Shown here: positions 4,823 through 61,337 of the stretch, one piece after another
Position numbering within the stretch: the stretch's first letter is position 1
Layout of the letters: every line of letters begins with the position of its first letter
Assembly (NCBI GenBank): GCA_028874215.1
Contig: JAPPLF010000083.1
Coordinates: forward strand, 1 to 64,000
Direction of reading: 5' to 3'
DNA length: 64,000 bases
Source of the DNA: Acidobacteriota bacterium
GTDB taxonomy: Bacteria; Acidobacteriota; UBA6911; RPQK01; JAJDTT01
The notes under the pieces: generated by a model
Database searches by the model: none
Told to the model about the DNA's origin: nothing
What the model saw: the letters and a program-made list of their open reading frames with translations, nothing else
Translations under genes and position numbers: made by a program

Positions 4823-5836
4823 CTACTCGTAATACGCTACGCCGTTCCGGTAATACACGTTGCTCGTGCTTCCGTCCTTGTTGCGGATGAGCCAGTCGCC
4901 GTCCATCTCGCCGTACAGGTACTGACCCTTCCAGAGGCCGCCGTCGGCAAGGCGCCACTCCCAATCGCCGTGCATTTCGTCGTCGAAGTACGGCCCTTCC
5001 CAGACGGTGCCGTCGGCATGGCGGACGACCCAGTCGCCGTTCCTCATGCCGTCCACATAAGGGCCTTCCCAGACACCGCGATAGGCGTCGCGCACGACCC
5101 ATCGGCCCTGCCTCACGCCGGCCACGAAGGGGCCCTTCCAGACGGCGCCGTCGGCCCGGCGTTCGACCCAGAGGCCGTGTTTCAGCCCGGCGACGTAGGG
5201 TCCTTCCGAGACGTCCCCGTTCGCTTCGCGCACCACCCAGTCGCCCTGCCGCTTGCCGTACAGGAGACGTCCGGTTGCTTCCACCGTTGACTTGCCGCCG
5301 TCCCAGACCCGCTTGATGGTCCCGGTCCCCTGGGCGACGCTCCCGGTGCAGATGGCCGACCAGGTGACGGACTCCTCCGGCTGGAGGTCAACGTTCCAGG
5401 CGTAGCATCCCGGCTGCTTTGCCAACTCCATCCAGCAATCGGCGCCCTTGGGCTGGTCCGAGCACGAGTTCTGCGCCGGCAGGCTGGCTTCGATATCGAG
5501 CGACAATTCCAGTGCCTCCCGGTAAAACGGGTCGTCCCTCGCGGCCATCCTCAGATACCGGTTCACGGAGTCCATGGCGATCTGGAACGAGCCGGCCGAA
5601 AAGGCCACCTCCGCAACCTTGAAGTCGTAGTCCTCGGGCAACTCGAGATCGTGATCCATCTTCAGATCGCGGGCCTTCTGCATCGATTCGAGCGCCCGGA
5701 CCGGGTCTCCTTGGGCCAGCAGCCGCTCCGCGTGCAACAGATGGCGGTCCACCATCACTTCCGGTGGAAGTTGGGCCGCCGCGACAGCAGCGCCGAAAAG
5801 GACGGAAATGACGACATTGGGGACGGTTCTCGGCAT
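4823..5836 (-). CDS. Secreted MORN-type repeat protein
   Basis: A 337-aa exported protein with three parts. A signal peptide covers about residues 1-22. A helical region (25-120) has TPR-like character (HAERLLAQGDPVRALESMQKA). A small cysteine-containing segment follows at 125-165 (CSDQPKGADCW, QPGCYAWN), with C125, C134, C144 and C163. From about residue 198 there are five 23-residue repeats of the type GDWVVR-x-A-D-G-x-VWEGPYV and a sixth partial copy to the end. The repeat resembles MORN or bacterial toxin-antidote MORN-like motifs (GxWxx...G..EGPY), which in known proteins serve as binding scaffolds or membrane contacts. No enzyme motif is seen. It is probably periplasmic or surface-exposed; the partner is unknown. 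It stands alone between two non-coding spaces. Confidence 0.8.
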   Translation of the reverse strand: MPRTVPNVVISVLFGAAVAAAQLPPEVMVDRHLLHAERLLAQGDPVRALESMQKARDLKMDHDLELPEDYDFKVAEVAFSAGSFQIAMDSVNRYLRMAARDDPFYREALELSLDIEASLPAQNSCSDQPKGADCWMELAKQPGCYAWNVDLQPEESVTWSAICTGSVAQGTGTIKRVWDGGKSTVEATGRLLYGKRQGDWVVREANGDVSEGPYVAGLKHGLWVERRADGAVWKGPFVAGVRQGRWVVRDAYRGVWEGPYVDGMRNGDWVVRHADGTVWEGPYFDDEMHGDWEWRLADGGLWKGQYLYGEMDGDWLIRNKDGSTSNVYYRNGVAYYE

Positions 5837-12393: not shown

Positions 12394-14211
12394 TCAACGT
12401 TTCGGAATGACCGGCAACAGGATGTGGGACGGGTGTTCGGCGTCGTGGTAGACGGTCTGATTGGCGATGACGATTTCCGTGTCGACGCCGAGCTTTCCGC
12501 CGTTGTTCAGGTTGCGGTCGAAACGCGGGAAGTTGCTACTGGAGACCTCGACGCGGATCTTGTGGCCCTTGAGAAAGACGTTGCTGACGACGCCCACTTC
12601 GATGAAGAATTTGTAGATCTTCCCGGGTTGCAACAGTTTGGGGTTTTCGAATTGGCCAGGTGAAGGGACCCCGGCTCTGATGGCCGCGGGGTCCCGGTAA
12701 CGGGCCCGGAGAATGCCGTCCCAGAGGTTCACCGCCTTGCCGTCCGGGTAGACGTCCAGCAGCTTGACGGTCCAGTCCGTGTCCCGAGCGGAGCTGCTGG
12801 CGTAGATGCTGGCCTGGATCGGCCCCGTCACCTCCAGCTCTTCCTCCAGCGCCTCGGTGCTGTAGACCAGCACGTCATCCCGGTGTTCCACGGGCCGGTG
12901 GTCCAGGGGCTCCACCTCGCCGTTGGGGTCCATCCCCAGGGTCGGGACCGGGTCCTCCGGATTGTAGGTGTACCGGTCGGGAGCTTCTCCGGGGGACGGT
13001 TTTCCCGTAGAGAGGGTCCCGTCGCCGAAGAGGGAATTGGCCCGTCCGCTGCTTCGGAGGTAGAAGGGAGTCCACTGGGTCTCCGGGAGCGGCCACATGT
13101 CGGCGGTCCGCCAACGGTTTTTCCCCATCATGAACAGTCTCAGAGGGGGTTCGTTCTCGACTCCGTTCTCGATTCCCTTCAGCCACCGGTCCATCCAGCG
13201 CAGGTAGAGCGCATAGAGGTCGATGATGGAGTCGACTCCGAAATCGAGCACCCCGTACGCCTGCTTGGGCCGGTCGGTGTGGACCCAGGGGCCCACCACC
13301 ACTTTCTGCAGGCGCTTGGCGCGTTCGGTGCCCTCTCGCTGAATCGCTTCGTAATTGGCGAACAGCGACTTGGCGTGCAGGTCGAGCCATCCGCTCACCT
13401 GCAGGATGGGGACGTCCGTCTTGCGGAAGTGCCCATAGTTGCTGGCTTTCTTCCAGAACTCGTCATAGCTGGGGTGCTGGATCCAGTCGCGGTAGAACCC
13501 GATCGGTTTGCCCGTGGCCTCGACGTCGGCCGTCAGGATGGGCAGGTGCCGGAACAGCTTGTCCCAGTCGTACGGTTGCCGTGTCTGCTGGGTCCGCCCG
13601 CGGACGCCGATGGACCAGGGGATGCCGATCTGCAGCAGGAAGGCCCCGCCGGTGTAGTTCATCCCGTACAGGTATTCGTCGGCCGGCCCCATTTGAGGCG
13701 CGATGGCCTTCAGATAGGGAGAGCCGGTCTGGGCCGCCTTCCACTGGGTCAGCCCCATGTGGGACATCCCCATCATGCCCACGTTGCCGTCGGACCAGGA
13801 CCGGGTCCCGCACCAGTCCAGCGTGTCGCGGCCGTCTTCGATCTCCACGATCCATCCGGACCACTTCCCGTCCGAATCGAACCGGCCCCGGCAGTCCTGG
13901 AGCACGTACACGTACCCGCGACGGGCGAAATACAGGGCCCGGTTGACGTACCAGTCGGAGCTGTTGCCGTACGGAGTCCGCTCCAGGATCACCGGCCACC
14001 GGCCTTCCTTCCCGGGGAGATAGACGTCCGCCGACAATGAAACGCCGTCCCGCATGGGCACCCGGACGTCGATCAGCGTGGCGGGCGAGTGTTCCGGCGG
14101 CGAGAGCATGTCCTTCCAGGCCGAACTCTCCGCCAGAGACGGCGAAATGAGTGTGGATTGCAGGCACATGGCGAGAAGTCCTCGGGTCCAGCGGCGAGTC
14201 GATGGGATCAT
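12394..14211 (-). CDS. CocE/NonD-type hydrolase (copy A)
   Basis: A 605-aa exported serine hydrolase of the CocE/NonD family (alpha/beta-hydrolase plus the C-terminal jelly-roll of X-Pro dipeptidyl-peptidases). The triad is readable: S150 in GMSHMG, D277 in SGWLDLH and H311 in GPWVH. VPMRDGVSLSADVYLP opens the catalytic domain; the C-terminal domain ends with HKIRVEVSSSNFPRFDRN. A signal peptide covers about residues 9-28. The start ATG overlaps the stop of copy B by four bases (ATGA), which implies translational coupling, and the sulfatase follows 13 bases on. It is closest within the window to copy G (61424-63238): same length and matching segments such as DTLDWCGTxSWSDGNVGM. The substrate is unknown; known relatives cut esters and amides. 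Confidence 0.93.
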   Translation of the reverse strand: MIPSTRRWTRGLLAMCLQSTLISPSLAESSAWKDMLSPPEHSPATLIDVRVPMRDGVSLSADVYLPGKEGRWPVILERTPYGNSSDWYVNRALYFARRGYVYVLQDCRGRFDSDGKWSGWIVEIEDGRDTLDWCGTRSWSDGNVGMMGMSHMGLTQWKAAQTGSPYLKAIAPQMGPADEYLYGMNYTGGAFLLQIGIPWSIGVRGRTQQTRQPYDWDKLFRHLPILTADVEATGKPIGFYRDWIQHPSYDEFWKKASNYGHFRKTDVPILQVSGWLDLHAKSLFANYEAIQREGTERAKRLQKVVVGPWVHTDRPKQAYGVLDFGVDSIIDLYALYLRWMDRWLKGIENGVENEPPLRLFMMGKNRWRTADMWPLPETQWTPFYLRSSGRANSLFGDGTLSTGKPSPGEAPDRYTYNPEDPVPTLGMDPNGEVEPLDHRPVEHRDDVLVYSTEALEEELEVTGPIQASIYASSSARDTDWTVKLLDVYPDGKAVNLWDGILRARYRDPAAIRAGVPSPGQFENPKLLQPGKIYKFFIEVGVVSNVFLKGHKIRVEVSSSNFPRFDRNLNNGGKLGVDTEIVIANQTVYHDAEHPSHILLPVIPKR

Positions 14212-16124
14212 GGACTCCCCTCCCGGATCGGCAACTCGATGAAGGAGGCGTGTTCGCCCCCGTGGTGGATCGTGTTGTCGGCGATGCGCCACTGCCGGCT
14301 CAACGGGTCGCCGGTGTTCCGGTTGATGTCGAAATTGGGAAAACTGCTGCTGGAGATGTCCACGCGGATGCGATGTCCCGCCTTGAACAGGTTGGCCGCC
14401 GGCTGGACAGGAAGCCGGATCTCGTACACTTGGCCCGGCTCCATCAACTCCGGCTTCCTGAAGCTGTTCCGGTACCGGGCGCGGATGATGCCGTCGGTGA
14501 CGGGGAAGGCGTAGCCTGCCGGGTAGTCTTCGCTGGGCGGATAGACGTCGATGAGCTTGACGAAGAAGTCGGTGTCGGGAGCGTCCGACGACACGTAGAG
14601 GACGGCACGAAGGTTGCCCGCCATGGTCACGTCTCCGGACAGGGGAGGGGTCTGGAAGACCAGGACGTCGGGGCGGGAGGCGGTGGGGAGTCCGGGGATT
14701 CCATGGCCCGGGAGGGTCTCCATCTGAATCTGGTTGTAGGGCCCCATTCCCCGGAACCCGAGGTCCGACGCCGGTCCGTAGGCGATCTCGCAGCGTCCGT
14801 CGCTGTGGACCGTGTTGCGCGGATCGTAGGTGTAGGTGGTGGACTCGGACCCGCCGTCCGGTTCGGCCGCCGACAGAGTACCGTCGCCATGGAAGTAGTA
14901 CTTCCTGGGAGAGGTGCCGGCGGCGGGCCATTGCTCGCCGGTCTGCCAGGTTCCTCCGTGGTTCAAACGGTCCTTTTCGCCGCGCCGCCCGTCGCCGCCG
15001 CCCATCACGAACACCTTCACCGGGTCGCCCAGCTCGGCGTTCTCGTCCCCCTTGAGCCAGCGGTTGAACCATTGCAGCTCGTAGTCGAGGAATTCCAGAT
15101 CGTTGGGTGGAACGACGCCTGCCGCGGCGCCGTAGTTGGCGTCCCCGTTGTAGGGATCCCAGTTGGCGTGGGTCCAGGGGCCGGCCACCAGGTACTGGTC
15201 GCGGCGGCCTCTCTTGAGCATCTCCCGGTAACCGTCCACGATGGATCGCGCGTAGACCTCGTACCACCCCGTGACCCACATGATGGGAATCTCCGGATAG
15301 TTGTCGAAGTATTCGTCCATGGCCAGGCTGGGCCGTTGCCAGAACTCGTTGTAGTCGTTGTTCTCGAAGTAGAACTGGAAGGCGGCGTCCTCATAACGGG
15401 GAGCCACGCTCAACGGCGTCTGCCCGCGCCGCCACGGAATTCGCGACGCCCACCGCAGAAACCCCTTGGACGTCAGCATCGGCTTGATGGCTTCAACGAT
15501 TGAGGGGTTCTCCTTGGCCTCCCAACTGGTGGTGGCCATGTGCAGGTGCCACCGCAACAGGCCCAGAGTCCGGGTCCCGCCCACGTGCATGCTGTAGTAG
15601 TAGGCGTTGTTCGGTCCGGTGTGGGGGATCATGGTGGCCAGGCCGGGCGGGTTCAGCGTGGCCATCTGCAACTGTACCCAGCCCATGTAGGAGACCCCGT
15701 AGGTCCCCACCTTTCCGTTGCTGGAGGGATGGCGCGCCAGCCATTCCACCGTGTCGTATCCGTCCTCCGCCTCGTCCCGCATGGGAAAGAACTCGCCGCC
15801 CGACCGGAAGCGGCCCCGGCAGTCCTGAATGACCGACAGGTAGCCGTGGCTGGCGAAGAAGGTGGCCGGGTCCTTGTAGAACTCGTTCTCCTTGTCGTAG
15901 GGCGTCCGCTGCAGGACGACAGGGAACTTTCCTTCCAGGGGGCGGCCGTCTTGGGCAGGCAGGTACAGGTCCGTCGCCAGTTCGACTCCGTCCCGCATCG
16001 GGATCTTGACATCCTTCAAGACGACGACGTCCATGGATTTCCCCTCCGCCGCCGGTCCGGCGGCCGCTACGCCAAGGCAGGAGAATCCCGTTGCAAACAA
16101 CAGAGTCCACGGCAAACTCCTCAT
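14208..16124 (-). CDS. CocE/NonD-type hydrolase (copy B)
   Basis: A 638-aa exported alpha/beta-hydrolase of the CocE/NonD family. Nucleophile S145 sits in GVSYMG and H319 in GPWTH. At the place where the other six copies have the acid of the triad as Asp (GWxD), this copy has Glu (GWYE, E289). The signal peptide is MRSLPWTLLFATGFSCLGVAAA. ATG 16124 is chosen because GGGAG lies seven bases upstream; the frame stays open further upstream only through the hairpin repeats at 16216-16323, which would not make a sensible leader. It is the first gene of a minus-strand operon: B, then A by ATGA overlap, then the sulfatase. It pairs with copy D (44234-46141) by length and by shared segments such as IQDCRGRF and RIPWRRGQTPL. 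Confidence 0.93.
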   Translation of the reverse strand: MRSLPWTLLFATGFSCLGVAAAGPAAEGKSMDVVVLKDVKIPMRDGVELATDLYLPAQDGRPLEGKFPVVLQRTPYDKENEFYKDPATFFASHGYLSVIQDCRGRFRSGGEFFPMRDEAEDGYDTVEWLARHPSSNGKVGTYGVSYMGWVQLQMATLNPPGLATMIPHTGPNNAYYYSMHVGGTRTLGLLRWHLHMATTSWEAKENPSIVEAIKPMLTSKGFLRWASRIPWRRGQTPLSVAPRYEDAAFQFYFENNDYNEFWQRPSLAMDEYFDNYPEIPIMWVTGWYEVYARSIVDGYREMLKRGRRDQYLVAGPWTHANWDPYNGDANYGAAAGVVPPNDLEFLDYELQWFNRWLKGDENAELGDPVKVFVMGGGDGRRGEKDRLNHGGTWQTGEQWPAAGTSPRKYYFHGDGTLSAAEPDGGSESTTYTYDPRNTVHSDGRCEIAYGPASDLGFRGMGPYNQIQMETLPGHGIPGLPTASRPDVLVFQTPPLSGDVTMAGNLRAVLYVSSDAPDTDFFVKLIDVYPPSEDYPAGYAFPVTDGIIRARYRNSFRKPELMEPGQVYEIRLPVQPAANLFKAGHRIRVDISSSSFPNFDINRNTGDPLSRQWRIADNTIHHGGEHASFIELPIREGSP

Positions 16125-16215
16125 GAGTGATCTCCCGTTCTCGTTGATTGACTGGGCTGGAAGCTGAGTGAGAATTTGCGGCTCAGAATATGGAGGGTGA
16201 GCCCCGATGTCAATT

Positions 16216-16323
16216 GGAGCGTGGGTTTTCAACCCGCGATTAGGAGCGTGGGTTGACAACCCCCGATTCGGAGCGGCGGTTTCCAACCGCCGAATCGGAA
16301 CGGCGGTTTCCAGCCGCCGAATC
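16216..16323. repeat. Intergenic hairpin repeat cluster 3: four tandem 27-bp units
   Basis: Four exact-period units start at 16216, 16243, 16270 and 16297. Each has GGAGC (GGAAC in the last), a seven-base arm, a three-base loop, the pairing arm and five bases GATTA/GATTC/GAATC. The arms change between units (GTGGGTT with AACCCGC, GTGGGTT with AACCCCC, GGCGGTT with AACCGCC, GGCGGTT with AGCCGCC) while most pairing is kept. The cluster lies between divergent genes, so it cannot simply be a terminator. The remaining sequence of this space holds only the -10-like element noted for the GWxTD gene. Confidence 0.88.
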
Positions 16324-16412: not shown

Positions 16413-17990
16413 ATGAGTCCGGCAATTCCGGGACTTTGTTTCTTTATCTTTGCCGCTTCCGCCGCATTCGGCCAATCCGTCCGGGACGAGGAATCCGAGC
16501 AGCACTTCAGAAACTGGCTGGACGAGGACGTCCGCTTCATCATCAATCCGGAGGAGAAGACCGTCTTCCGGGGTCTCTCCACGCCGGAGGAGAAGGAGCG
16601 GTTCATCGAGCAGTTCTGGCTGCGCCGGGACCCCGATCCCAAGACGTCCATCAACGAGTTCAAGGAGGAGCACTACCGCCGCATCGCCTACGCCAACGAG
16701 CGCTTCAAGGCGGGACGCGACGGCTGGCTCACCGACCGGGGACGGATCTATATCGTCTTCGGTCCGCCGGCCCACATCGAAATGCATCCCATGGGCGGAC
16801 TTCACAACCGTTCGCTTTCCGAAGGGGGCGGATCCACCGTCACGTTCCCCTACGAGGTCTGGACCTACCGTTACATCGAGGGGCTGGGAAACGACATCCT
16901 CTTCGAATTCGTCGACTCCGGCATGAGCGGCAACTACCGGCTCGCCCTCAGCCCGGACGAAAAGGACGCCCTGCTGATGACCGGCTACGGGCTGACCATG
17001 GAGGAGTTCTTCGGATCCAGGACGCGCCTTGACCGGGTCCGGCAGCAGGGGATCCTGCGTCCTCTCGATCACACCGGTCTCGGCATCAACAAGAGCAACC
17101 TCCAACTCATCGAGGACTACTTCAAGGCCCTCACTCCCCCCAACATCAAGTACAAGGACCTGCAGAAACTCGTGGGGACGCGCGTCCACTACGAGGAGTT
17201 GCCCATCGGCACCCGGGCCTCCATCGTCTGGGTCAACGCCGAGCAGTTCATGGTGCCGGCCACGCTCCAGGTCTGGAACCGCCTGCTGACCTATCAGCCG
17301 GAGAACGACATCCGCAGGGCGCGGGTCGAGATCTACGGCGCCGTTCATGACCTCTTGGGAAAGACCGTCTACGAGTTCGAAGACCAGGTCTACGTCGACG
17401 ACACGGGCTACCGTCCCTTCGTGGAACAGGGGAAGTCCCTCTACCAGCACACGATTCCCCTGAGGTCGGGGCGCTACAAGCTGGACTGGGTGGTCCGCGA
17501 CGTTCACTCCGGAAAGATCGGTACTTCGGTCCATTCCATCGTGGTGCCGCCCAAGCCGGAGGCGGAGCTCTTCACCAGCACGCTGATCCTGGCCGACCGG
17601 ATTCGAGTCCAGCAGGAGCCCGATCCGCTGGAGCCCTTCGCCACCCTTTCCGGACTCAAGGTCTATCCCAACCTCCAGAAGAATACGTTCCCGGCCGGAG
17701 AGCGGGTCGGACTCTACTTCGAGATCTACAACTTCTCCGTCGACTCCGCCACCGGGGAAGCGGACCTGAGGATTCCGCTTCGCGTCCTGGACCGAAACGG
17801 ACAGGTGGTCCAGGAGATCCGCCTGGATCACGTGGGCCTGACCTACCTGGGAGAACGGGCTTCGGCCTCGACCCATCTCTATATCGACGGCATCGGGGAC
17901 TACCGGGCCGAGATCTCCATTGAGGACCTGATCTCGGGCCGGAAGAAGGACATGAGCGTCCGATTTCGAATCCAGGACAGTTCGGGTTGA
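16413..17990 (+). CDS. GWxTD domain-containing protein
   Basis: A 525-aa exported protein named for the motif it carries: GWLTDRGRIYIVFGPP near residue 105. A signal peptide covers about 1-21 (PGLCFFIFAASAAFGQ). The N-terminal region before the motif (LSTPEEKERFIEQFWLRRDPDP) is the conserved part of the GWxTD domain, common in Acidobacteriota and Bacteroidota and of unknown function. The later half is beta-rich with repeated sandwich-like segments. ATG 16413 is chosen over an upstream in-frame start because it begins the signal peptide directly. Its stop overlaps the TTG start of the next gene (TTGA), coupling the two; that neighbour is an exported heme lipoprotein, so both probably act in the periplasm. 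Confidence 0.88.
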   Translation: MSPAIPGLCFFIFAASAAFGQSVRDEESEQHFRNWLDEDVRFIINPEEKTVFRGLSTPEEKERFIEQFWLRRDPDPKTSINEFKEEHYRRIAYANERFKAGRDGWLTDRGRIYIVFGPPAHIEMHPMGGLHNRSLSEGGGSTVTFPYEVWTYRYIEGLGNDILFEFVDSGMSGNYRLALSPDEKDALLMTGYGLTMEEFFGSRTRLDRVRQQGILRPLDHTGLGINKSNLQLIEDYFKALTPPNIKYKDLQKLVGTRVHYEELPIGTRASIVWVNAEQFMVPATLQVWNRLLTYQPENDIRRARVEIYGAVHDLLGKTVYEFEDQVYVDDTGYRPFVEQGKSLYQHTIPLRSGRYKLDWVVRDVHSGKIGTSVHSIVVPPKPEAELFTSTLILADRIRVQQEPDPLEPFATLSGLKVYPNLQKNTFPAGERVGLYFEIYNFSVDSATGEADLRIPLRVLDRNGQVVQEIRLDHVGLTYLGERASASTHLYIDGIGDYRAEISIEDLISGRKKDMSVRFRIQDSSG

Positions 17991-20900: not shown

Positions 20901-21055
20901 ACACGATCTCCCGAAGCCAGATCGCCAACCTCCGCTCGCTGGGAGTGTCCGCCATGCCGGAGGGTGTCCAGGAGGACATCACCGTCCAGCAGATGACCGA
21001 CCTTCTCGAGTACCTGACCCACCTGGGAGCGGCGACTGGAGCGGCGACTTTCTAG
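17987..21055 (+). CDS. PVC-type heme-binding dehydrogenase-like lipoprotein (copy 1)
   Basis: A 1022-aa protein of the membrane-bound dehydrogenase group known from Planctomycetes, Verrucomicrobia and Acidobacteria. It has a lipobox LTGGC with C28 as the probable lipidated residue, then an N-terminal beta-propeller (FQLAPGFRIELAAAEPQVVDPISMAFDERGRLFVVEM) related to glucose/sorbosone dehydrogenases. HEAT-like helical repeats follow (about 440-850), then a C-terminal cytochrome c domain with heme motif CSQCH (C894, C897, H898) and the LENILDPNSNIVPGYEEY segment. It probably oxidises a sugar-like compound and passes electrons to a c-type carrier. The TTG start overlaps the GWxTD stop by four bases. 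The last nine residues (GAATGAATF) and the stop are encoded by a hairpin repeat. A paralogue lies at 57246-60311. Confidence 0.9.
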   Translation: MKLGRAGTRLTQAVRFAAVLAAVLTGGCIDAGPPYSPEAALQSFQLAPGFRIELAAAEPQVVDPISMAFDERGRLFVVEMRDYPISDQPLSRIKLLEDRDGDGRFEHASVFVDGLHMAHGVLPWKGGILVACAPDILHFTDTDGDGRADRRKVILTGFALVNPQLRINTPLYEMDNWIYAAYPRFGVGRRFKQFSDQGQPIHFPGHPEVAPVDVFERRSDIRFKPDKLRIEPVTGNSEFGQAFNARGHRFPSWNNNHLRHSVIEIRYLDRNPHLQVENPMQTVSDHGQPAPVYPITDHPHLQNIRQTRLLKELGHFTSACGQSIYAGGRFPEPYGGAYFIAEPAHNLVHSDILSTRGATYTGAGAFEKSEFLASRDSWFMPVFTTTGPDGALYVADFYRKIVEHPEWIREDFVDDHELFYAGQDRGRIYRIVHGQPEPAEAPRLDRADAAELVGRLSHPNRWWRLTAQRLLVERRDPSAIPRLVELARGGASTRGRMHALWTLEGLDALDAGLVVAGLGDESPEVREQAIRIGESYLSDRRVVDRMMEMTGDPDDRVRFQLACTLGELPAGDSFEPLLKIVHDHMEDPWFQVAALSAAGEHTVGWFRAVVGNRDFASRETEGRQLFLRRLGAMIGARQKARELTAVLATVGRAAADADLWWPVPSLEGLAEGLKRGTEPEVDLSRQAQRILLELLSGPNRLGSAALEMAEGVRLSNTLQFRSLIRQAAAVAADEEAGLDSRVHAIRLAALDPTRADYALLAGLLQPSQPEKIQMAATRALVVLPHPRSTDVLLGAWRSFTAPLRNAALDGLLREPERVPSLLDAVEAGSVQPWTIRGARRGRLFRISEGETLERARTLLRSSPPDLRVLMDQYGAAARTTGDAASGREVFNRNCSQCHKVGETGSEVGPDLLSLSGRTKYEFLENILDPNSNIVPGYEEYLVETNDGRALTGVMASQGPATVTLRRSEGEEDTISRSQIANLRSLGVSAMPEGVQEDITVQQMTDLLEYLTHLGAATGAATF

Positions 21056-21093
21056 TCGCCGAACAGGAACGGCGGTTTCCCAACCGCCGATCT
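21026..21093. repeat. Intergenic hairpin repeat cluster 4, overlapping a stop codon
   Basis: A partial unit GGAGCGGCGACT (21026-21037) is followed by a full one: GGAGC, arm GGCGACT (21043-21049), loop TTCT, arm AGTCGCC (21054-21060). A second full unit has arms GGCGGTT and AACCGCC (21071-21088). The TAG stop of the upstream gene (21053-21055) uses the last loop base and the first two bases of the return arm. The neighbouring genes converge. The rest of the space to 21178 shows nothing. Confidence 0.85.
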
Positions 21094-22333: not shown

Positions 22334-22367
22334 CACAGTAGGGGACAGCGTTGCCCCGGTACACTCC

Positions 22368-22490
22368 GGAATCGGCGGTTAGGAAACCGCCGCCCCACCT
22401 TGGAAACGGCGGTTAGGAAACCGCCGCCCCACCTTGGAATCGGCGGTTGGGAAACCGCCGCCCCACATGGGCTGGGAAACCGCCGCTCCA
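22368..22490. repeat. Intergenic hairpin repeat cluster 5: three tandem 34-bp units and a broken fourth
   Basis: Units start at 22368, 22402 and 22436, a constant 34-base period. Each has GGAAT or GGAAA, C, arm GGCGGTT, loop AGGA or GGGA, arm AACCGCC, then GCCCCACCTT or GCCCCACATG. A fourth copy (22469-22490) keeps only GGGAAACCGCCGCTCC. The cluster is in the reverse orientation to cluster 3. On the minus strand it begins about 16 bases after the stop of the CocE gene. Confidence 0.88.
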
Positions 22491-32711: not shown

Positions 32712-32793
32712 GGGGGGACTGCCGTCCCCCCTCCCCCCCTGTCGGCGGTAGGAAAACCGCCGCCCCAATCGACGACAAGAAAGTCGCCGCTCC
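32712..32793. repeat. Intergenic hairpin repeat cluster 6 (three units) between convergent genes
   Basis: GGGGGGAC and GTCCCCCC flank TGCC (32712-32731, perfect eight-base stem). CGGCGGT and ACCGCCG flank AGGAAA (32743-32762). A weaker unit with a CGAC/GTCG core (32773-32786) ends in GCTCC. On the minus strand this last unit begins directly after the TAG stop of the DUF1501 gene. No other feature is seen in the space. Confidence 0.85.
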
Positions 32794-37334: not shown

Positions 37335-37396
37335 GGAGCGGGGGTTTTCCAACCCCCGGTTCCGGGGAGTGGGGGACTGACAGTCCCCCCTCCCAG
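37335..37396. repeat. Intergenic hairpin repeat cluster 7 (two units)
   Basis: GGAGC then GGGGGTT, loop TTCC, AACCCCC (37340-37357), followed by GGGGGACT, loop GAC, AGTCCCCC (37371-37389). Both stems are perfect. The second ends about 12 bases from the stop of the CRTAC1 gene on the minus strand. Confidence 0.85.
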
Positions 37397-42581: not shown

Positions 42582-42663
42582 GGGGACAGTAATGTCACCG
42601 CAAGAATCGGCGGTTCGAAACCGCCGCTCCAATCAGGAATCGGCGGTTGACAACCCTCGCTCC
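42582..42663. repeat. Intergenic hairpin repeat cluster 8 (three units) next to a start codon
   Basis: GGGGACA and TGTCACC flank GTAA (42582-42599, one mismatch). GGCGGTT and AACCGCC flank CGA (42609-42625). GGCGGTT and AACCCTC flank GAC (42642-42658), partly decayed. The latter two sit 33 bases apart and end GCTCC. A purine-rich GGAGAGGAGAGGGG (42572-42585) runs into the first hairpin, whose loop holds the ATG at 42592. Confidence 0.82.
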
Positions 42664-44114: not shown

Positions 44115-44230
44115 GCGGCGACTTTCCTGTCGCCGATCTCCGGAATAACAAAACCCCGAGACCAAGCGGGAAAGCTCGGAGTGGGCGACAAGAAAGTCAC
44201 CCTCCCCAGTGGGGGACTAACAGTCCCCCC
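44115..44230. repeat. Intergenic hairpin repeat cluster 9 (three units) between convergent genes
   Basis: The first unit starts five bases after the permease stop: GGCGAC and GTCGCC flank TTTCCT (44117-44134). The second has GGGCGAC and GTCACCC with one mismatch (44183-44202). The third, GGGGGACT and AGTCCCCC with loop AAC (44211-44229), ends four bases before the stop of CocE copy D. So both flanking genes are closed by a unit of this family. Confidence 0.85.
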
Positions 44231-44233
44231 TCC

Positions 44234-61211: not shown

Positions 61212-61337
61212 AGGGGACAGTCTTGTCTCCCACCCGCCGGGAGGGGGACTTTCCTGTCCCACCTATTTGTGTCCTCGCGTCCCGCGTCGGCGCGTGAAAC
61301 ACGCCGCTCCAGGACGACGCGTAAAACACGCCGTTCC
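61212..61337. repeat. Intergenic hairpin repeat cluster 13 (four units)
   Basis: GGGGACA and TGTCTCC around GTCT (61213-61230). GGGAC and GTCCC around TTTCCT (61245-61260). Then two units 27 bases apart with a new arm: GCGTG/CACGC around AAA (61292-61304), ending CGCTCC, and GCGT/ACGC (61319-61331), ending CGTTCC. The 27-base period is the same as in cluster 3 although the arm sequence differs. The rest of 61175-61411 shows nothing else. Confidence 0.82.

Follow-up and report, generated by a model that had tools for sequence, protein, structure and literature searches.

The four head-to-tail hairpins at positions 16216-16323 of the window, the 64,000-nucleotide stretch analyzed here, are very probably REP-like elements that were mobilized by cognate RAYT transposases, with arms that differ by RAYT lineage and with successive populations layered in the same intergenic regions. 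The array is best regarded as a variant of this system and not as a new copying process, because copies belonging to different RAYT versions appear to have been laid side by side.

Anatomy of the four-unit array

The array lies in the divergent intergenic region common to a hydrolase gene and a GWxTD gene. The features of this region are as follows.

14208-16124, - strand: S15-type peptidase/CocE-NonD family hydrolase gene (PF02129, PF08530), divergent from the GWxTD gene
16216-16242, + strand: REP-like unit 1, foot GGAG, arm CGTGGGTT / AACCCGCG, tail ATTA
16243-16269, + strand: REP-like unit 2, foot GGAG, arm CGTGGGTT / AACCCCCG, tail ATTC
16270-16296, + strand: REP-like unit 3, foot GGAG, arm CGGCGGTT / AACCGCCG, tail AATC
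16297-16323, + strand: REP-like unit 4, foot GGAA, arm CGGCGGTT / AGCCGCCG (type A), tail AATC
16413-17990, + strand: GWxTD-domain protein gene (PF20094)

In each unit, a 4-nt foot leads into a hairpin with arms of 8 nt and a loop of 3 nt, closed off by a tail of 4 nt, and all four units are read head-to-tail on the + strand. The strict 27-base period described in the first-pass annotation was recovered (starts at 16216, 16243, 16270 and 16297; TRF score 112), as was the switch of arm from GTGGGTT in units 1 and 2 to GGCGGTT in units 3 and 4. The flanks, given there as constant GGAGC and GATTC, are in fact variable: the fourth foot is GGAA, three different tails occur, and GATTC is exact in unit 2 only. 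The arm of unit 3 is of type A, the same as the arm flanking the RAYT gene of the window's own species. Tandem A-A pairs with a GGAG and then a GGAA foot were also found elsewhere in this genome, for example at G000:C74:6309 and 6336.

Folding as ssDNA was compared with that of shuffled sequences. Units 1, 3 and 4 beat almost all shuffles (z of -3.0, -3.9 and -3.4), and unit 2 did not fold better than its shuffles (z of -1.1), because its stem carries a T-C mismatch at position 3. The array itself is not a REPIN, and with all units on the + strand it lacks the alternating REP orientations of a BIME. A sigma-70-like promoter match (10/12) for the hydrolase gene is located at 16185-16213 on the - strand, 3 bases before the first unit.

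A family of REP-like hairpins across the genus

The 5.7-Mb draft genome containing the window (G000) was compared with the other three genomes of the genus (G001, G002 and G003); all are MAG-like drafts, one of which is 8% contaminated. The same hairpin recurs in hundreds of copies per genome, with a GGAG foot, an 8-bp covarying stem and a TTCC-like loop of 3-4 nt. In about 0.9 Mb of G000, 86 GGAG-footed units obeyed the arm grammar, vs 0 in a control read backwards, and genome-wide counts of the arm patterns likewise gave 0 control matches for all classes. Distinct arm pairs numbered 75. The arm classes used below are these.

Class A: GGCGGTT
Class B: GGCGATT
Class C: GGCGACw
Class D: GGCGGCw
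Class E: GGCGGT with a longer loop
Class F: GGGGACw
Class G: GGCGTGT
Class H: GGCGTCw
Class I: GGGGGTt

Among 12 distinct 27-mers, 99% of stem cells were paired and two-sided changes were seen in 5 of 8 pairs. The stem covariation score of this set was 0.619, vs 0.143 for shuffled sequences and at most 0.091 for slid stems, to be read with caution because pairing was a requirement of the search that supplied most of the set. Classes G and H (window 61288-61337; G001:C22; G002:C15) consistently keep a T.G mismatch at position 6 of the stem (GGCGTSW / WSGCGCC), which may serve in recognition as does the bulge in REPs of E. coli.

Several properties of REPs were found: the stem directly follows the foot and has variable arms, copies are numerous and mostly intergenic, and a RAYT gene is flanked by hairpins of its own kind. 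Feet-out doublets of GGCGGTT and GGGCGATT, about 75 bp long, recur elsewhere as in REPINs. The foot in this genus is GGAG, also GGAA or GGGG, and not the canonical GT(A/G)G (PMC3686654). That the elements work like REPs is well supported; we call them REP-like with a variant foot because the published defining foot is not present.

Besides the array, the window contains the following units.

1227-1250, - strand: single type A unit
21038-21089, + strand: mixed-arm tandem pair, CGGCGACT then CGGCGGTT, 28-bp spacing
22373-22464, - strand: three type A units with foot GGGG, 34-bp period
32712-32793, - strand: mixed-arm tandem of CGGCGACT, CGGCGGTT (long loop) and then a GGGGGAC hairpin
37335-37393: type I unit CGGGGGTT (+ strand) opposite type F unit GGGGGACT (- strand), feet outwards
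42608-42630, - strand: type A unit adjoining a second, degenerate unit
44183-44233, - strand: mixed-arm tandem pair, GGGGGACT then GGGTGACT, 28-bp spacing
61288-61337, - strand: two type G units, 27 bp apart, arm CGGCGTGT

The last entry (units 61288-61310 and 61315-61337) bears out an earlier remark that the 27-bp period returns with a third arm type near the end of the window; exact G/H-class units number only 3 in the whole of G000. Two clusters with a spacing of 33-34 bases had also been mentioned, without coordinates. The 34-bp period is real at 22373-22464, which is presumably one of them.

With crude gene calls, under which about 80% of the sequence was coding, 107 of 131 units with foot GG[AG][AG] were intergenic. 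Their density was 1.32 per kb in convergent intergenic regions, vs 0.51 in codirectional and 0.42 in divergent ones. Such a preference for convergent genes speaks for terminators or mRNA-stabilizing structures kept in place by selection. However, the window array sits between divergent genes, none of its four units was scored as terminator-like (a GC-rich hairpin followed by a T run, which is absent here), an Rfam search of the window gave no match, and congeners lack the units at orthologous positions. We therefore consider this explanation very improbable, though the host may make secondary use of some units.

RAYT genes and the arm classes they accompany

An intact Y1 transposase gene was found on contig C53 of G000, with hairpins of the same family, arms A and B, on both sides. 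The protein scored 28.5 bits against PF01797, above the cut-off of 23, and 74.6 bits (E 7e-21) against NF047646 (REP-associated tyrosine transposase), below the curated cut-off of 80. Its only PDB match was E. coli TnpAREP (4ER8), and its Y1 domain carries the HuH and catalytic Tyr motifs PNHVHVLF and YIRENP. Judged by these matches, it appears to be a RAYT/TnpAREP of the Y1/HuH family. Further RAYT genes were found in the congeners.

G001:C22: RAYT, flanking arms mainly H, with F
G001:C110: RAYT, flanking arms F, with I
G002:C15 (36.7 kb): RAYT, flanking arms G/H
G002:C15 (79.5 kb; 79521-80179): RAYT, broken, flanking arms D/C
G003:C477: RAYT, flanking arms mainly E, with C
G003:C444: RAYT, flanking arms F

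The genes of G000:C53, G001:C22, G002:C15 (36.7 kb) and G003:C477 occupy one syntenic locus, with flanking genes in common on at least one side. DNA identity at this locus was 76-85% for the RAYT gene and 83-90% for the flanks. In a tree of the RAYT proteins, which has few rows, one of them a fragment, the sequences clustered by arm class, with support of 97/96 for G/H, 91/86 for C/D/E and 93/95 for F. Both GTAG and GGAG feet occur with RAYT relatives of the same taxonomic class; with the more distant relatives from Verrucomicrobia the foot is GTAG.

The number of exact units of each class (control 0 throughout) was then set against the resident RAYT genes.

Class A: 117 in G000, 31 in G001, 16 in G002, 32 in G003
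Class G/H: 3 in G000, 194 in G001, 52 in G002, 6 in G003
Class C/D/E: 61 in G000, 1 in G001, 159 in G002, 166 in G003
Class F: 60 in G000, 196 in G001, 52 in G002, 56 in G003

Arm class depended strongly on genome (chi-square 737, 9 degrees of freedom). A dominates in G000 and H and F dominate in G001, while C/D/E leads in both G002 (G/H at 52) and G003 (F at 56). In every genome, the commonest counted class thus belongs to a RAYT residing there, which is intact except in G002, where it is recently broken. The broken gene at G002:C15:79521-80179 has the C/D class as its flanking arms, which is still the commonest there with 159 exact C/D/E units; it is perhaps a recently silenced spreader. For its 61 C/D/E units and its 60 F units, G000 has no intact cognate RAYT, and these units must be relics or have been spread by another enzyme. 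Ageing by mismatches, in which matches with 2-3 mismatches mix the classes, gave 15% exact C/D/E units in G000 and 51% in G002. This is only suggestive of a retirement of the C/D/E class in G000.

Gain and loss of units at orthologous sites

The comparison of close relatives proposed in the first-pass annotation was carried out with the congeneric genomes. Whole units, pairs and arrays were gained or lost as blocks. In the old pair of the window array (units 1 and 2), no matched change of both arms was seen. Three sites around G000:C42:180-189 kb were aligned across the congeners. A REPIN insertion of about 106 bp was present in G000 only, the site being empty in the three others. The array of 7-8 units at G000:C42:181.2 kb was absent from the orthologous site of G001 and G002. 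At the third site, G002 has a REPIN, G001 a nested composite, and G000 and G003 nothing. In the 7-8-unit array (about 1160-1380 of locus L020), head-to-tail units with GGAA feet follow one another every 28 bp, joined by the linker AACA.

At the site of the window array, all four species have the left boundary TGTCAA(A)T(T) and a trace of one GGGGGTT-arm unit. The contig of G003 ends inside unit 1 of the orthologous array, and up to there it has GGAGCGGGGGTTTTCAACCC at the position of unit 1 and shares the left boundary TGTCAATT with the window. G001 has a shortened unit ending AACCCCCGGTTC, and G002 has the remnant AACCCCCG; GGCGGTT (type A) units were absent from this site in both genomes.

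The GTGGGTT arm was at one time considered as a separate family, and this was rejected because G003 has GGGGGTT at the same place, indicating a decayed type I arm. Read from the alignment, unit 1 is thus a decayed GGGGGTT-arm unit, and GTGGGTT would most simply be the old arm after a G-to-T change common to units 1 and 2. Unit 2 is probably a 27-bp local duplicate of unit 1; such a duplication is the simplest reading of the pair and a likely one, most simply followed by one further change in unit 1 after GTGGGTT had arisen. The mutations in these old units are single-sided, leaving a T.G wobble in unit 1 and the T-C mismatch in unit 2, vs GGGGG in G003.

These alignments bear on the suggestion that a copying process renews the arms. 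Copying was borne out by the gain and loss of blocks. Renewal was not, since the old arms changed by one-sided point mutations and new arms arrived as whole units from a different REP population that is tied to a RAYT. If slippage, gene conversion or template switching renewed arms within an array while foot and period were kept, arms could change under a fixed period as they do here, and the GTGGGTT left arm common to units 1 and 2 does suggest one local 27-bp duplication. However, the arm types are not invented locally but belong to classes that are scattered over the genome and go with particular RAYTs, the one-sided changes in the old units break pairing, and mixed-arm and same-arm neighbors alike have linkers of 3-4 nt. 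Renewal within the array is therefore highly unlikely. Simple tandem duplication alone was also rejected, as it cannot yield mixed arms with the same linker.

Spacing and orientation of neighboring units

In the four genomes, 47 of 62 tandem pairs had a linker of 3-4 nt (18/23 same-arm and 29/39 mixed-arm pairs). The 27-28 bp period therefore arises because a unit of 23 or 24 nt is followed by a 3-4 nt linker, whatever the arms. Spacings of 24-28 bp resulted, and 31-34 bp occurred too. By orientation, 84 pairs were head-to-tail, 45 feet-out and 8 feet-in.

Helical phasing had been offered as the other reason for the fixed period. The strict period of the window array might then reflect selection for binding of gyrase, IHF or a nucleoid protein, and E. 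coli REPs and BIMEs do bind gyrase and IHF (PMC2817692). But 27 bp is 2.57 turns, which would place neighbors on opposite faces of the helix, and the various spacings, 31-34 bp included, are set by unit length plus linker, with largely no preference for whole helical turns across the arrays. There is next to no likelihood that phasing explains the array.

The RAYT-based reading accommodates these data as follows. Each RAYT lineage would spread its own arm type as an ssDNA hairpin with a 5′ GGAG foot, with the RAYT presumably cleaving and pasting units of 27-28 nt (4-nt foot, 8-bp stem, 3-4 nt loop and 3-4 nt tail). Successive REP populations would settle in the same stretches between genes, often directly against a unit already there. 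For 16216-16323, we infer that a GGGGGTT-arm unit of old standing, passed down throughout the genus, acquired mutations and was duplicated, and that it was then joined in register by two units with GGCGGTT, the arm that dominates now. No target-site or cleavage-site signature was established for the units. The GGAG foot, the NF047646 score below the cut-off, the dominance of head-to-tail pairs and the C/D/E and F units of G000 that lack an intact RAYT of their own speak against this reading.

On this reading, each new unit would insert beside an older one, in preference to a joint movement of pairs or a joining by local recombination. Movement of mixed-arm tandems as ready-made composites instead of stepwise single insertions is nevertheless a serious possibility, to which we give somewhat less than even chances. 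Class C followed by E, 26 bp apart, recurs at about 8 sites in G003, G followed by H at 24-28 bp recurs in G002, F followed by I is found in G001 always in that order, and ordered pairs of this kind stand next to the RAYT genes of G001:C110 and G002:C15 as well. For the recurrent C-E pairs of G003 and F-I pairs of G001, this favors movement as ready-made pairs. However, the order is not always fixed (D-C and C-D are both common), and some combinations occur in a single copy (J-A was seen once). A more specific proposal, tentative and rather unlikely as it stands, is that RAYTs insert a unit in register beside any GGAG-footed unit, recognizing foot and hairpin shape but not the arm. If true, mixed-arm arrays would grow stepwise and form a layered record of successive RAYT/REP regimes, like strata.

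Relation to known REP systems

REPINs have been described (PMC3116915), as have the class-wide anatomy of REPtrons (PMC6006769), foot and loop recognition (PMC8266576), and the coevolution of RAYTs and REPs, in which RAYTs evolve faster than their neighbors and REP abundance tracks the transposase (PMC2817692). The present elements resemble REPtrons (PMC2817692, PMC3116915, PMC6006769) in being 5′-footed hairpins with hundreds of intergenic copies and inverted feet-out doublets, and in having a RAYT that is flanked by its own hairpin type, evolves faster than its neighbors and co-diverges with the REP arms. They differ in that the foot is GGAG and not GT(A/G)G, head-to-tail pairs with 3-4 nt linkers are the commonest, and arm types are mixed within an array.

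The "orthoswitch" of Pseudomonas and Stenotrophomonas, in which syntenic RAYTs go with different REPs and old classes are left over (PMC3686654), is matched here by orthologous syntenic RAYTs with different REP classes between relatives and by the persistence of old classes. Unlike that case, the switch is found in another lineage, four arm classes change abundance across four genomes, and old and new classes stand in one tandem array. The GTAG-tagged palindromic repeat superfamily (PMC3733652) shares the 5′ tetranucleotide, stems of 6-9 bp with complementary changes, mostly short loops and feet-out dimers, but not the GGAG foot. Published feet are GT(A/G)G or a close variant, with the degenerate forms GYAG, GYRG, GTRG and GTMG, and head-tail dimers are rare in the described families (PMC3733652). 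A GGAG foot was not found in the text of the REP/RAYT papers searched. E. coli BIME-2 is likewise a regularly spaced cluster in which more than one REP subtype (Y, Z) takes part (PMC2817692, PMC6006769); BIMEs, however, are alternating inverted REPs, while the repeats here are direct. The system thus differs from published RAYT/REP and orthoswitch cases in its GGAG foot and in how common mixed-arm arrays of head-to-tail units are.

For the unsolved questions of REP spread and of the joint change of palindromes and transposase, this genus provides four relatives with syntenic RAYTs of different cognate arms and with empty and filled sites that can be compared. The variant GGAG foot can serve as a test of the guide-sequence model, and the mixed-arm tandem arrays give junctions at single-unit resolution.

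Other repeats

A second tyrosine (Y1) transposase gene, at G000:C11:16328-16603, is flanked by a different repeat, GGGGACAGTCTGTTTCTGCG / GGGGACAG, of GGGGWSAS type. This agrees with GGGGWSAS, the motif described for TIRYT genes, which include a group from Acidobacteria (PMC3733652), and about 7 full-length copies of this kind of transposase were found in G002. In 864 kb, GGGGACAG was counted 72 times, vs 26 for the reversed word, and often adjoins GGAG hairpins, for example at window positions 22341, 42582, 61213 and, right after the array, 16347. Within two overlapping opposite-strand ORFs without a Pfam match, a 69-bp tandem repeat occupies window positions 4883-5250.
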